The notes beneath the pieces were generated by a model. The model did not search any database and was not told where the DNA came from. It saw nothing but the letters and a program-made list of their open reading frames with translations. A stretch of DNA of 64,000 bases, from positions 27,667 to 91,666 of the IMG/VR virus record IMGVR_UViG_3300021185_003145. One strand, 5' to 3'. Position 1 is the stretch's first letter. Each line of letters opens with the position of its first letter. The translations under genes and the position numbers were made by a program. This document shows positions 40,519 through 46,455 of the stretch, in pieces. Origin of the DNA: a virus.

Positions 40519-42852
40519 TTATGCTAGTCTATCTCCGACTACTTTAATATTTTTATTAAATTTTCTCATCTCTTGTAACATTTCAGAGTTATCAAAGTTA
40601 GTTACTGCTTTTGCTATCTGTTGTGCCGCTTGAGCCATTGCTTTCTCGCCACTTCTGTCAAAGGCTGTGTCTTTATCAAAGTTTGCAGGTAAAGGGAAAA
40701 CACCTTCTTGTGTTCCTGGTTTTTCACCAATCGCAGCATTGTAAATCGGTTGTGTAACGATTCCGCCTTCTGCAAATCCAAAAAAGTTTGCTAACTTACC
40801 TCCTACAGATTTACCAAGCATATCTCCGCCAACACCGCCAGCAATACCGCCTATTATTCCACCAATTAAAGTTCCAATAATTGGAACTGCACTTCCTATT
40901 AATGCACCTGTTGCCGCTCCGCCGGCTGCACCGCCAAATGATCCAAGTCCTGAACCAATACCTTCACTAATTTTACCAACTTGTGTTTCTTGCTCACTTG
41001 TTGCATATGTTACACCACCCGAAAGTGCTGAACCTATAATAGGAATTCTTGGAAGAATCTTGCCTAACATTCCAGATGCTTTACTAAGCATAGTAGTTGA
41101 TTGGCCGGCTGCTTTTGCTACCTCATCTGATGATTGGGCTCCTTTTATTACACCTTCTGCAATATTAGTTGATGTTGCAGTAGTTGCCGAAGCAGTACCG
41201 CCACCAATTCCTATTTTTGCTAGTGCTTCTTTAAACACTTTTAACTGACCTGCTGCTTTTGTAAATCCTGTTTGTAATCCTTTAGCGGCACCTACTGCCG
41301 TTGCTGGTTTACTAGCATCTCCAATTGCGTTAGTAAATGCGTCCATTGATGTTGGCATACTAGTAACTAGTGTTTGTAAAGATTTAACACCTGCTGACAT
41401 AACGCTTACTGCTGACTCTGTTACACTATTAAAACCTAATCTTACAGTTTTACCAATTTCTTGTGATAGTAAGTCAACGTTCTTCATGTTCTTACTATTT
41501 TCGTCTAGTTGTGTTTTTTGAGCTGCAACAAACTTGTCATAGTCTCCGTTAAAATCTTTTTCAACTGTTAATCTTTGCTTTTGTGCATTTAATAATGCAG
41601 CCGATACTTCTGTAAACGCCATTGCAATTTCACTATATTGTGCAATGCCTTCCATTCCTTTATTTGCTTCAATGAATGTAGTACTAACTCCGGCTAATTC
41701 TTTTTGGATGTCAGTCATACTCACTGTGCCATCTTTTAATCCAGCAGTAATCCTTGCAATAACAGGACCCATATTACCGTCTTGTAGTAACATGTTTCCA
41801 GCAGTGGTTGCCGCTGCCGGTAATCCTAAGAAACTAGTTCTTAGTGCGTCCATTATTGGCGAGCCTTCACCAAACTGTGTACCCATTGTTGCAAATGCAG
41901 CTCTGGCACCACTGGCTGCTTCACCTTGCATACGACTCATCTGCAGTTCAACATCTGCTCTACGTTTATCGTTTGCCATTTTCTGAGCAAGTTGTTTACG
42001 ATCTTGTCCAGTTAAGTTTGCCATCATTTGTACTTCTTTTACAAAATTGGCTCCTGCTTGTGCTTGTTGTTGCACACCTAATGTTGCAAATTGTGTGTTT
42101 CTGGCTTGCATTGCAGTGAACTGTGCTAACATTTCTGCACTTTCACTAGCCTTAATACCCATCATAGCAAAGTCTGTACGATAAGTGTCTTGTACAACAC
42201 GGTTCATTTCACTAAAACGTTTTGCACCTAATCTTGCACTACCACCAAATACTGCTAAACTTTCGCTATTCTCTCGTAACATACCTGTCATTTGTTCTAA
42301 TGACAAATAACTGTTAGCCGCTACTCTTTCAAGATCAAATAAGTTATTTGTAAATGTTGCACCAGTTGAACTTAGTCCATCAAACGTATCAATTAAATTT
42401 GCACTGTGTCCAACTATAGCACCTGCGGCTGCACCAAATACAGCACCCAAGGCACCAAACTGACTAGCATTTTTGTCTACTGCGTCACCTAGTGACTTCA
42501 TATTCAGGCCAGTTCCAGCAACTTCTCCGCCAAAGTTGATTAATCCTTTACCAGCACCAAGTACTGCGTCCAGCATTTTTTTGCCTCTGGCTGCAAATGT
42601 GTTTGCACTTTTGGCTGCATCTTCTAATGCATCAGTGGCATCTGAACCAGCACTTGCTAGTCCTTTTAACTTGACCACTCCTGTTGTTAATTCTTTTGTG
42701 TTTGCCGCACGAGCTTTTACTTCTGCAACAGCAGCTGGAGTTTTACCAGTTGCACTTTTTTCCATTAAGTTAACTAATCGTTCAAGTGTTTTCTCAGTTG
42801 CTACGTCACTGATTTCTACTCTACCACCGTCTATGTCTACTGTAACTGCCAT
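40519..42852 (-). CDS. 29: Tape measure protein (gp29 functional equivalent)
   Basis: 777-residue Ala/Gly/Met-rich helical protein with hydrophobic stretches (GAVFGAAAGAIVG near 135, and GALIGSAVPIIGTLIGGIIGGIAGGVGGDMLG near 680). These are the hallmarks of tape measure proteins, which set tail length and pass through the membrane during injection. The segment GFAEGGIVTQPIYNAAIGEKPG near 715 is a common tape-measure C-terminal motif in phages. T4 gp29 is 590 residues; the longer protein predicts a somewhat longer tail. Its assembly chaperones gp26/gp51 are transcribed divergently next door from crossed promoters. Confidence 0.82.
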   Translation of the reverse strand: MAVTVDIDGGRVEISDVATEKTLERLVNLMEKSATGKTPAAVAEVKARAANTKELTTGVVKLKGLASAGSDATDALEDAAKSANTFAARGKKMLDAVLGAGKGLINFGGEVAGTGLNMKSLGDAVDKNASQFGALGAVFGAAAGAIVGHSANLIDTFDGLSSTGATFTNNLFDLERVAANSYLSLEQMTGMLRENSESLAVFGGSARLGAKRFSEMNRVVQDTYRTDFAMMGIKASESAEMLAQFTAMQARNTQFATLGVQQQAQAGANFVKEVQMMANLTGQDRKQLAQKMANDKRRADVELQMSRMQGEAASGARAAFATMGTQFGEGSPIMDALRTSFLGLPAAATTAGNMLLQDGNMGPVIARITAGLKDGTVSMTDIQKELAGVSTTFIEANKGMEGIAQYSEIAMAFTEVSAALLNAQKQRLTVEKDFNGDYDKFVAAQKTQLDENSKNMKNVDLLSQEIGKTVRLGFNSVTESAVSVMSAGVKSLQTLVTSMPTSMDAFTNAIGDASKPATAVGAAKGLQTGFTKAAGQLKVFKEALAKIGIGGGTASATTATSTNIAEGVIKGAQSSDEVAKAAGQSTTMLSKASGMLGKILPRIPIIGSALSGGVTYATSEQETQVGKISEGIGSGLGSFGGAAGGAATGALIGSAVPIIGTLIGGIIGGIAGGVGGDMLGKSVGGKLANFFGFAEGGIVTQPIYNAAIGEKPGTQEGVFPLPANFDKDTAFDRSGEKAMAQAAQQIAKAVTNFDNSEMLQEMRKFNKNIKVVGDRLA

Positions 42853-42912: not shown

Positions 42913-43776
42913 ATGGATGAAAACGCGAATCCTTTAAAACAGGATCAAAATCCCTTAACCGGATATTTTCGTAAACCTGAAGTATATGTGTCTCTACCCA
43001 GCAAAGGAAACTACTATGCACCCGGTGCCATAGATTTTCCACAAAACGGAGAGATAGGTGTATTTCCAATGACTGCAAAAGACGAGTTAGTTTTTAAAAC
43101 TCCAGATGCACTACTTAACGGAAGCAGTACCGTTGAAGTTATTAAGAGTTGTGTACCTGCTATTAAAGACCCGTGGTCCATACCAAGTTTAGATATGGAT
43201 GTTTTATTAATTGCTATTCGTATTGCAACATACGGTAATCAAATGGATATTACCGCTACTTGTCCTACTTGTCAAGCAAAAAATGAGTTTGGCATTGACT
43301 TAGCAAACTTAATTGACCAAAGCGGAAAATGGGTGTTCAATGATACTTTGCAAGTAGATGATTTAACAATTAAATTTAAACCACTATCATACAAAGACTT
43401 AAACACTGAAAATCTTAGACAGTTTGAAGAAGCAAAAATTATGAGAATTGTCAATGATGAAACAACAACTGATGAACAAAAACAACAGTTGTTTAACGAT
43501 ACATTCTTAAAACTTACTGTACACACAGTTGACTTAATTGCTAAAACAATTTTTAAAATTACTACTGCTGATGGTACTGAAGTAACAAACATTAAACACA
43601 TTAACGAGTTTGTTCACGGAGTTGATAGAAAGATGTTTGATACTATTCAAAAACATCTTGACAATGAAAGAGTGAATAACAGTTTTGCAGAGTTTGAATT
43701 AACTTGTGAAAATGAAGGTTGTGATACAAAGTATAACACACCTATAGTATTTGACAATTCAAATTTTTTCGCATAA
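42913..43776 (+). CDS. 26: gp26 baseplate hub / tail assembly chaperone
   Basis: 287 residues with the marine T4-like gp26 pattern: FRKPEVYVSLPSKGNYYAPG, FPMTAKDELVFKTPDALLNGSSTVEVIKSCVPAIKDPW and VLLIAIRIATYG. CPTC (about 117-120) and CENEGCDTKY form zinc-ribbon-like pairs. In T4, gp26 and gp51 are adjacent and needed for hub assembly. Here gp26 ends in NFFA-stop, and its last codons form a -1 slippery heptamer in phase. A share of ribosomes should therefore continue into gp51 to give a fusion of about 362 residues, like the G/GT chaperones of lambda-type tails. Confidence 0.85.
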   Translation: MDENANPLKQDQNPLTGYFRKPEVYVSLPSKGNYYAPGAIDFPQNGEIGVFPMTAKDELVFKTPDALLNGSSTVEVIKSCVPAIKDPWSIPSLDMDVLLIAIRIATYGNQMDITATCPTCQAKNEFGIDLANLIDQSGKWVFNDTLQVDDLTIKFKPLSYKDLNTENLRQFEEAKIMRIVNDETTTDEQKQQLFNDTFLKLTVHTVDLIAKTIFKITTADGTEVTNIKHINEFVHGVDRKMFDTIQKHLDNERVNNSFAEFELTCENEGCDTKYNTPIVFDNSNFFA

Positions 43777-43838
43777 GGCTTCTGAGTCTTAGCAACGAAG
43801 ATATTGAATCGATGCTAAAGCAGTTCGACACAGAAGCC
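43764..43838 (+). promoter_or_regulatory. Programmed -1 ribosomal frameshift signal (gp26/gp51)
   Basis: Heptamer T TTT TTC at 43764-43770, in the X XXY YYZ phase relative to gp26. The spacer GCATAA (6 nt) includes the gp26 stop. The stem GGCTTCTGAGTC (43777-43788) pairs with GACACAGAAGCC (43827-43838) except for one A.A mismatch. An inner stem TTAGCA (43789-43794) pairs with TGCTAA (43813-43818), which buries the first ATG of gp51. The -1 frame is open from the slip site to 44000. Confidence 0.88.
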
Positions 43839-44000
43839 GACACTATTAGAGAAAATATATTTAAGATAGTTTGGTATATGCGTGGTGGCATTAATCTGGA
43901 TCAGGCATTCATGCTCAATCAGAAAGAGCAGAAGATTATCTACGATATCGTTTCAGAAAACATCAAGAATACAGAGAAGAGCGGAATGGCATTACTTTAG
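43812..44000 (+). CDS. 51: gp51-like hub assembly protein, probably made by frameshift fusion
   Basis: The first ATG in this frame gives 62 residues (LKQFDTEADTIRENIFKIVWYMRGGINLDQAFMLNQKEQKIIYDI...), matching the short helical tail-assembly domain found behind gp26 in marine T4-like phages. No Shine-Dalgarno sequence precedes the ATG, and the ATG lies inside a stem. The frame is open upstream back to the slippery heptamer, adding RIRLLSLSNEDIES. Expression as the C-terminal part of a gp26-gp51 frameshift product is therefore more likely than independent initiation. The tape measure protein is the expected client. Confidence 0.8.
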   Translation: MLKQFDTEADTIRENIFKIVWYMRGGINLDQAFMLNQKEQKIIYDIVSENIKNTEKSGMALL

Positions 44001-44085: not shown

Positions 44086-44484
44086 AAATGATTATATAAC
44101 TGAAGTCTTCATGCAGATCGTTTCAGTCAGACGGAACCTGTTTAAGGGTTCCATCTAATCTTGACTTCATGCGAGTATTATCCAGCCGAGACTTGGAAGT
44201 AGGTATTGTTTATACACAAGTTTGATGGGCTCTGACCTTTCCCAACCTACGTCGACATACATATTGCTATGTTACCCCACGCTTCGTTCCTGTTGCCATG
44301 GGTTTTTACAAACTATATTGTGTTTTTTGATTGACAGTAATTCAATCTATACTAACCGGTGAGCCCAATTTGTTTGATGGCTTCCACACTCTGGTGTGTT
44401 GATCTGTATGTTGCGTGTGTTCCTATACGGAAACTTTTTCCACAGCGGAATTCTAAACTGGCCCGCTAACCTTAAGTACTGTAA
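44086..44484. ncRNA. Non-coding, hairpin-rich region; candidate structured RNA
   Basis: About 400 nt without a reading frame above about 31 codons, less AT-rich than its surroundings, between convergent genes. Inverted repeats include TGAAGTC (44101-44107) with GACTTCA (44163-44169), which encloses GGAACC (44133-44138) with GGTTCC (44147-44152). Further pairs are GTAGGT/ACCTAC, GATTGA/TCAATC (7-nt loop), CACAC/GTGTG (4-nt loop) and two TTCC/GGAA hairpins. The strand is undecided. It could be a long 3' UTR of the early operon, an independent small RNA, or relic sequence. No tRNA, tmRNA or group I intron core was found. Confidence 0.35.
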
Positions 44485-44925
44485 CTATAATTGTTGATTG
44501 TTCTTGAACTGTTGAATGCCTTCGTGGAGAATTTTGCTACTGCCTACGCGAACGTTAATAATGCCATTATAGTAATCATCTGATAAAAGAACTTCCCTGT
44601 CAAATTGTTCCTTTGCTTCAAGATAACTCATTAAGCCTCTACTTGAACAAAGATATAATATTTCACGTGTGAAGTTTGTACTGCCTAGCTCTGCTACATC
44701 TGCCTGTAAGTGATCTGAAGATCCATAATATTCTCTCCAATCACTTTCTACTGTGGTTCGTCTTTTGTTTTTCTTACCTTTAAGAGGTGGTTTTGTTTTT
44801 TTAAATTTTGCTAATTTTTTGCCAATGTATTTTTTGTTGCTTTTTAAGTTGGTTATTAAGTAAACAAATCCTTCAACGTCACTTGGTAACTGCTCGATAG
44901 GATCACCTTTATAAGTCCAACTCAT
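44485..44925 (-). CDS. GIY-YIG-like endonuclease
   Basis: 146 residues. VYLITN (21-26) and KKYIGKK (31-37) form the GIY-YIG-type strand pair, with Y22, Y33 and G35. A basic linker (KKTKPPLKGKKNKRRTT) follows, then WREYYGSS and the helix SRGLMSYLEAKEQFDREVL with the expected catalytic Glu. Proteins like this occur as free-standing nucleases in T4-like phages (Seg-type). It is the last gene of the gp47-gp46 early operon and overlaps the upstream gene by 4 nt. The adjacent non-coding block downstream makes a mobile-element history worth considering. Confidence 0.78.
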   Translation of the reverse strand: MSWTYKGDPIEQLPSDVEGFVYLITNLKSNKKYIGKKLAKFKKTKPPLKGKKNKRRTTVESDWREYYGSSDHLQADVAELGSTNFTREILYLCSSRGLMSYLEAKEQFDREVLLSDDYYNGIINVRVGSSKILHEGIQQFKNNQQL

Positions 44926-45140
44926 TTCTTTTGTTTTCTTAACTGTTGTAATTGTAATGCCTTCTTGTGGTAATAGTCAACCTTTTTCTCTGCGTAAAAT
45001 GGTAAAACGTTAGGAAGTATACCATGTATAATACTAACGATACCTGTGAGTATAAGATCGAGTCCTGCCACAACAGCAAATTTGCCATGTTGAAAGTAAC
45101 CTTTGCGGGCTTCTTTAAGATGAGCTTTAATTTGAAACAT
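44922..45140 (-). CDS. DUF6356-type small membrane protein, 72 aa
   Basis: HLKEARKGYFQHGKFAVVAGLDLILTGIVSIIHGILPNVLPFYAEKK follows the DUF6356 pattern: an amphipathic HxxE..xgYFxH segment, one to two hydrophobic helices (about 21-48) with the IHGLLP turn, then a basic tail. It probably sits in the inner membrane with the C-terminus cytoplasmic. Function unknown; the family is found in proteobacteria and phages. It overlaps both neighbours by 4 and 14 nt, so it is translated from the same operon. Confidence 0.7.
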   Translation of the reverse strand: MFQIKAHLKEARKGYFQHGKFAVVAGLDLILTGIVSIIHGILPNVLPFYAEKKVDYYHKKALQLQQLRKQKK

Positions 45141-46455
45141 ACTTCTGCCTTAATTTTCCTATATCAGGTTTTCCTAATACATTAAGCTCTATGGGTATTA
45201 TTAGTTTATCATAACTGATACCCTGGCCTGTTAATTTCTGGATCAAACTGTCAGTATTCACTGAATCGTCATTCACACAGACTACAACATGTGTCTGAGA
45301 AGTACCAAACAACACAATTTTTGTTGCTTGACTTTCGTCAACAAGTTGTTGCGGATTAACTAATTCTCCGTTAATCCTAATAAAATCTTTATTACGTTTT
45401 TCAAAATAATAATTATCGCCAACCGTGTTTACACGGTCACCTGTATTTAATGTATCCACATTAGAATCGTTAATTTGCTTTGCTAAATGCTTACTTTTAA
45501 CAATTACTAATTCACCGTGTCTGTCAATTTTGTATTCAGCAGTATCATCACAGTTTACACCCATATCCTGCTGATTATAATCAGCAATGTTTTGTTTGTT
45601 TACAAACTTATGCATAATAGGAGGCAAACATTCTGTTAGTCCGTATATTACAACAACATCATCAACACCTTGCTCAATTAGTTTTTCACAAAATGTTTTT
45701 GGAATTGTTGAACCTCCAGTTAGTACATAGCGAACATGACTTAAATCTAACTTGCTTAAATTTTCGTATTGTTCATAGTTTGATGGAAACAATAACATTG
45801 TATCAGGTTTGTGTTTATTAAATGTTTCAACATCATAAGTGTCCCACAAATGTGGCAAAACGACCTTTTTACTAGAAAATAATGCAGGAAAGAAATACAC
45901 AGTACTAACACCTAAGTGTACAATATTATGATAAAACCAACTTGTTTTTGCATCTTTCCAGTAGTGCTTGATACTATCGTTTGAAGCACAAGTAATACTT
46001 TCGTGTGTATGTGTTACTGTTTTAGAATGCCCTGTTGTACCACTAGTAAACGATTCTAGTATAATATCGTTATGGTTAACACGATAGAGTTTTGATGGTT
46101 CAATATTGCCATCTAACTCAATGTGAGGAACATTAATAGTTTTTACAGTTACAGGTTGTATTCCACGAGTTAGAACAATTTTAATATTGCTCCTTGCACA
46201 GTACTCGTCATCAATATAATGGTCACCACTAATAACAGGAACAAGTCCGTAGTCAATAGAAGCAAACACTACTGCTAGATGATGTATGTCTTCTTGCAGA
46301 CACAATGAAATACGATCGCCTCTTGTAAGTTTTTGACTTTCAAAGAAACGCTGATATCCTCCAGCAAGACAAGTTAACTCATCTTTACTGTAGATACGTT
46401 CGTTAGTGCAATCATGTATTTCAATATCGTTTTGTAATCTCGATATTGAAATCAT
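45127..46455 (-). CDS. ANL-superfamily adenylating enzyme (acyl/aryl/aminoacyl-AMP ligase-like)
   Basis: 442 residues with the core motifs of AMP-forming ligases in order. These are the P-loop TSGTTGHSK (137-145, usual form TSGTTGxPK), YGLTE (271-275), TGD (338-340), a hinge-like segment KDFIRINGELVNPQQL near 356-371, and LGKPDIGKLRQ near the end with the A10-type catalytic lysine region. The enzyme should activate a carboxylate with ATP; the acceptor (CoA, carrier protein or other) is not visible. It is shorter than most family members (500-600) but not truncated at a motif. Its ATG overlaps the stop of the 60-residue gene (TAATG). A ligase in a phage recombination operon is unusual. Confidence 0.85.
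   Translation of the reverse strand: MISISRLQNDIEIHDCTNERIYSKDELTCLAGGYQRFFESQKLTRGDRISLCLQEDIHHLAVVFASIDYGLVPVISGDHYIDDEYCARSNIKIVLTRGIQPVTVKTINVPHIELDGNIEPSKLYRVNHNDIILESFTSGTTGHSKTVTHTHESITCASNDSIKHYWKDAKTSWFYHNIVHLGVSTVYFFPALFSSKKVVLPHLWDTYDVETFNKHKPDTMLLFPSNYEQYENLSKLDLSHVRYVLTGGSTIPKTFCEKLIEQGVDDVVVIYGLTECLPPIMHKFVNKQNIADYNQQDMGVNCDDTAEYKIDRHGELVIVKSKHLAKQINDSNVDTLNTGDRVNTVGDNYYFEKRNKDFIRINGELVNPQQLVDESQATKIVLFGTSQTHVVVCVNDDSVNTDSLIQKLTGQGISYDKLIIPIELNVLGKPDIGKLRQKYVSN

Follow-up and report, generated by a model that had tools for sequence, protein, structure and literature searches.

The gp26-like gene of this phage very probably uses a programmed −1 ribosomal frameshift, directed by a slippery heptamer and a downstream hairpin, to yield a short and a long form of a probable tail-assembly chaperone. 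It lies in the 64,000-nucleotide stretch of viral DNA that we analyzed (the window). Judged by its portal protein, which matches PF07230 (2.5e-109), the phage is T4-like. An in-phase X XXY YYZ heptamer, an open coding −1 frame and a downstream structure under selection, by which −1 programmed ribosomal frameshifting is recognized, are all found at the locus. The signal, its phase and conservation, the open −1 frame, the structure and the colinearity with T4 gp51 are direct observations and are described below.

The slip site and its two reading frames

The short (N) form, a gp26-like protein of 287 residues plus stop (42913..43776, + strand), matches PF12322 (T4_baseplate; 3.7e-17, 63.2 bits against a curated cut-off of 24.5) and phrog_150 (9.2e-20), and its AlphaFold model has a pLDDT of 88. 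The last gp26 codons, AAT TTT TTC GCA TAA, place the slippery heptamer T TTT TTC (43764..43770, + strand) in phase. A second in-phase heptamer, A AAT TTT (43761..43767, + strand), overlaps the first and also occurs in 27 of 41 jumbo-type representatives; a slip at either would produce an identical protein. The six-nucleotide spacer GCATAA (43771..43776, + strand) includes the gp26 stop TAA. The −1 frame ORF (43764..44000, + strand), which encodes the C-terminal (T) domain in 78 codons plus stop and needs no start codon of its own, contains no stop until the TAG at 43998-44000. Joined to 284 gp26 residues, it gives a predicted long (NC) form of 362 residues (42913..44000, + strand) that is colinear with T4 gp51 by the phrog_150 positions in S-PM2. 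The preliminary description of this DNA had placed T TTT TTC in the gp26 phase, the stop within a 6-nt spacer and an open −1 frame from the slip site to the gp51 stop, and each of these points is confirmed in the window sequence. Of the 132 window ORFs of at least 60 residues, none but the gp26 ORF combines an in-phase heptamer within the final 30 nt with a long −1 continuation.

Conservation of the heptamer and the −1 frame

Homologues were gathered by gp26 protein similarity, and the motif was not used for fetching. The heptamer, originally proposed from the window by itself, is conserved across T4-type phages: an in-phase slippery heptamer lies shortly 5' of the gp26 stop in all 175 loci, comprising 84 of the same type as the window (79 viral contigs that include the 3' end, the window itself, Atu_ph07, PA5oct, 121Q and Phosso) and 91 of cyanophage and KVP40 type. 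Named phages that bear it are the jumbo phages 121Q, PA5oct, Atu_ph07 and Phosso, cyanophages, HTVC008M, phiM12, Cr30, DLP6 and KVP40; beyond the 175, Aeh1, Cronobacter S13 and pf16 also have an in-phase heptamer and an open −1 frame. The gp26 proteins with the heptamer range down to ~30% identity, and the −1 frame is open in every locus, over 59-83 codons counted from the slip site. The canonical heptamer was absent from the loci inspected in T4, RB43, Aeromonas phage 31 and Krischvirus. In the Ackermannviridae VP-1 and Kevin (L202 2241, L203 2762), a PF12322-like protein is followed by an open −1 frame, with GTTTTT or GTTTTC and no canonical heptamer.

Such a break in frame could be a one-base assembly error in an intact gene, or a pseudogene, and the −1 frame does continue a homologous fused protein, the appearance that a sequencing error would give. 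The identical break at the identical place in 175 contigs and isolates rules out this explanation, whose probability we regard as negligible.

Across 72 non-redundant copies, the slip site reads T.TTT.TTC in 65, T.TTT.TTT in five and T.TTT.TCC in two, both of which retain A AAT TTT. Codon usage would lead one to expect T.TTT.TTC in ~7% (in these genes, 72% of other Phe codons are TTT, and T occupies 36% of third positions), although the comparison of 65/72 with ~7% is not a probability because the copies are related. Polymerase slippage can produce mixed-frame mRNA, and the presence of a homopolymer run raises the alternative that the fusion stems from transcriptional slippage at the T6 run. 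However, T-runs of 5-6 are short for polymerase slippage, and of 41 jumbo-type copies, 39 have a run of just 6 and the remaining two a run of 5. Moreover, the phase of the run, the C that follows it and the nearby downstream hairpin are all conserved, yet transcriptional slippage would need none of them. We consider this origin exceedingly improbable.

A downstream hairpin under selection

The predicted stimulatory stem-loop (43777..43838, + strand) starts 6 nt past the heptamer, with an outer stem formed by 43777-43784 and 43831-43838 and an inner stem around 43789-43818. Folding reproduced the previously described 12-position stem with one A.A mismatch and an inner stem, giving 8 bp, the A.A mismatch and 3 bp ahead of the inner stem. 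The window hairpin has a minimum free energy of −22.2 kcal/mol (z −3.5; none of 200 shuffles was equally good), and its z is −4.2 against shuffles preserving the −1 frame peptide. For the homologues, the 75 nt 3' of the heptamer were compared with synonymous shuffles retaining the −1 frame peptide, and the results were joined by Stouffer combination. The mean folding advantage was 2.2 sd for 41 jumbo-type copies (combined z −14) and 2.0 sd for 31 cyanophage-type copies (combined z −11). The hairpin exceeds the requirement of protein coding. In the same shuffle test, no strong hairpin was found in loci L031 and L061 or in HTVC008M, and the hairpin was weak in some cyanophage copies.

The 5' arm mostly begins 2-8 nt from the heptamer, and its pairing partner varies between lineages. 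In the long-stem class, synonymous Leu codon swaps in the 5' arm (CTT CTG, CTT TTG, CTC TTG) track E, K or R codons ~50 nt downstream. We examined covariation in 12 divergent copies selected for folding in the long-stem form, with the 3' arm set by best complementarity. In these, 91.7% of cells are paired compared with 32-57% in slid controls, a value biased upward because the twelve copies were chosen for folding so. Within the same stem, five pairs show two-sided changes, with 21 such changes versus 0-4 in slid controls. The lack of stem covariation had been named beforehand as evidence against frameshifting; two-sided pair changes were found.

Start signals of the second ORF

In the window, the first ATG of this −1 frame, the sole one nearby, is at 43812 within the inner stem. 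This placement, and the missing Shine-Dalgarno sequence of gp51, had both been reported from the window and are borne out, and the start is not conserved among homologues: across the 72 non-redundant copies, no conserved start codon or good Shine-Dalgarno sequence was found for the −1 frame ORF.

These start signals bear on the possibility that gp51 is a separate protein, initiated on its own or through stop-start coupling where gp26 terminates, with the poly-T simply encoding Phe-Phe. Cyanophage records do annotate gp26 and gp51 separately, with the gp51 start a few nt beyond the gp26 stop; several copies have an ATG just past this stop, and the annotation of 121Q has an overlapping TAATG start. 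In many copies, however, the first possible −1 frame start comes at codon 34-50, and the PA5oct frame has no ATG, GTG or TTG at all. Conserved protein is already encoded before the first start, codon usage does not account for the constancy of both Phe codons and the T ahead of them, and T4 has the fused form as a gene. Synthesis of two separate proteins is very unlikely on these grounds.

The relationship of the −1 frame ORF to T4 gp51

Both T4 gp26 (208 aa; 8.8e-64) and T4 gp51 (249 aa; 3.9e-52) match PF12322 and are therefore paralogues, with gp51 carrying an additional C-terminal tail. Short and long forms with a common N domain thus occur by frame in the window and as separate genes in T4. 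It follows that the earlier label "gp51" is correct in part: the −1 frame ORF is real, but its counterpart is the C-terminal tail of T4 gp51, not the whole protein. In the cyanophage S-PM2, gp26 occupies phrog_150 positions 5-232 and the −1 frame peptide 231-281, and T4 gp51 covers phrog_150 nearly end to end; T4 gp51 thus already has the form that the frameshift fusion would take. The end of T4 gp26, GLKEFFELL, keeps the Phe-Phe, encoded TTC TTT, without the heptamer. The window T domain gives a weak match to the cyanophage/T4 T domain (hhalign E 1.2e-4, probability 55%), and homologous position together with this modest profile match weakly links it to that group.

In a gp26/gp51 tree, which has long branches and an arbitrary root, a single clade (98/95) unites the copies of both genes from T4, RB43, Aeromonas phage 31 and Krischvirus, and within it the gp51 copies are monophyletic (100/98). 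This duplicated clade sits beside the frameshift-keeping KVP40, Aeh1 and S13, with a joining fork of 92/86. The simplest reading of the tree would be one duplication of gp26/gp51, inside Straboviridae; frameshifting would then likely be the ancestral state, and the signal would be missing in T4, RB43, Aeromonas phage 31 and Krischvirus because of the duplication. Homologues with gp51 elsewhere and with its own start, which had been held in advance to count against a frameshift, do exist in these four, but they refute nothing, as gp51 there is the duplicated, already fused long form. That the separate gp51 of T4 and its kin is this fused form instead supports the chaperone reading.

We lean slightly towards a broader proposal, in which the U UUU UUY frameshift would be the ancestral and majority route to the hub chaperone pair across the T4 superfamily, RaK2-type jumbo phages among them; T4 and its closest relatives would have swapped recoding for duplication once, and the hub names of gp26 and gp51 would hide one tape-measure chaperone system.

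Probable chaperone function and a candidate tape measure

T4 gp26 and gp51 have been described as hub assembly chaperones (PMC3004832). Gene order and analogy make a tape-measure chaperone role likely for gp26 and the long form. The preliminary description had equated the locus with the G/GT frameshift and had named the tape measure as the client. The conserved heptamer, the −1 frame, the stem and the colinearity with T4 gp51 support the former, and gene order and analogy suggest the chaperone role and the client.

The candidate tape measure or client is a 777-aa Ala/Gly-rich structural protein with one hydrophobic segment and weak tape-measure PHROG matches (40519..42852, − strand), divergent from gp26 in the window. 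A tblastn search returned no homologue of it in named phages. A large protein is also encoded on the opposite strand just upstream of gp26 in PA5oct, 121Q and Phosso; it is called structural in PA5oct and 121Q, and the PA5oct record notes that mass spectrometry detected the product of the gene at this position. The next gene in cyanophages, Aeh1, S13 and KVP40 kin is large and of tail type, with little or no match to tape-measure profiles.

Sequence searches of the PDB with gp26 and gp51 gave no match, nor did an NCBIfam search, and Foldseek comparison of the short-form and T4-type gp51 models with the PDB as a whole returned nothing at E <= 0.001. Foldseek against viral models retrieved mainly hub proteins of T4 type and phage proteins without a name.

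The region 3' of the −1 frame ORF

A conserved element without an ORF lies right after gp51 (44110-44475; core 44226-44256). Its nucleotide identity is 75-80% where gp26 has 42-46% amino acid identity, far above that of its neighbours. At least 120 viral contigs carry the 31-nt core, TGGGCTCTGACCTTTCCCAACCTACGTCGAC, without a mismatch, several invariant blocks are common to 86 non-redundant copies, and the consensus folds better on the minus strand. Searches for Rfam families, tRNAs and phage-database entries gave no convincing match, no tRNA and no match, respectively. The element is a candidate structured RNA or DNA site.

A gene for a SegE-like GIY-YIG protein (44485-44925, − strand; PF19835) adjoins the element in 127 of 140 fetched copies, and the protein is ~69% identical where gp26 is 37%. 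For a mobile endonuclease, such conservation and so constant a position are unusual, and the gene is possibly a partner of the noncoding element. Between it and a gp46-like gene lies the gene for a 442-aa AMP-binding (adenylate-forming) enzyme (45127-46455, − strand; PF00501, 1.6e-28), which is present in only 6 of the 140 copies.

Proposed mechanism

Slippage itself, its rate and the chaperone role are inferred. Ribosomes translating gp26 would arrive at U UUU UUC, or at A AAU UUU one codon earlier, where the hairpin 6 nt downstream would stall some of them and the two tRNAs would re-pair one base back. Unshifted ribosomes would terminate soon after to give the short form, and shifted ribosomes would read 76 further codons beyond both Phe codons to give the long form. 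If the pair works like lambda G/GT, the short form would cover the tape measure protein and the C-terminal domain of the long form would bring in tail-tube subunits.

This mechanism would give the obscure hub proteins gp26 and gp51 a testable shared role and would correct two-gene annotations in many T4-type phages. It would also provide a natural case of gene duplication replacing a frameshift, useful for asking why phages retain recoding.

Comparison with known systems

That tail chaperones are made by frameshifting is textbook knowledge for lambda-type phages. As in lambda G/GT, one gene pair would yield a short product and a fused long product through a −1 shift on a heptamer shortly ahead of the stop codon, and the pair adjoins large tail-type genes. 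In contrast to lambda G/GT, the window protein belongs to PF12322, which has no detectable relation to solved structures, and the candidate tape measure gene of the jumbo-type lineage runs divergently.

The tail chaperone genes of T4-like phages were identified by Vladimirov, Gautam and Davidson (2022, Virology 566:9-15), as cited in PMC10885494 and PMC12846349. According to the PRFect paper (PMC10885494), some T4-like phages have a short gene and a separate fused long gene; according to the Adele paper (PMC12846349), the TAC-N genes of T4-like phages are known to contain poly-T frameshift signals. Identity of the 2022 pair with gp26/gp51 fits these statements and the paralogy found here, and both are short and long pairs of T4-like phages. 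The 2022 title, however, argues for a non-frameshift mechanism, whereas the lineages examined here carry the signal except T4 and its near kin; an ancestral frameshift, if true, would amend the published view, as that title conveys it, of T4-like chaperones independent of frameshifting. The passages of PMC10885494 and PMC12846349 on these genes make no mention of the window's lineage. Measured against this prior work, as represented in the texts citing it, the additions here would be the survey, the covariation, the jumbo-phage members and the finding that T4 has lost the slip codons.

The tail chaperone frameshift of Vandenendeviridae and Andersonviridae (PMC12846349) likewise shows an open −1 frame in all genomes, and TAC-N ends in a conserved poly-T motif. 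It differs in this motif, which is GTTTTT; the comparison covers motif and frame. Taken together, it is well supported that the window frameshift belongs to a known kind, that of lambda G/GT.
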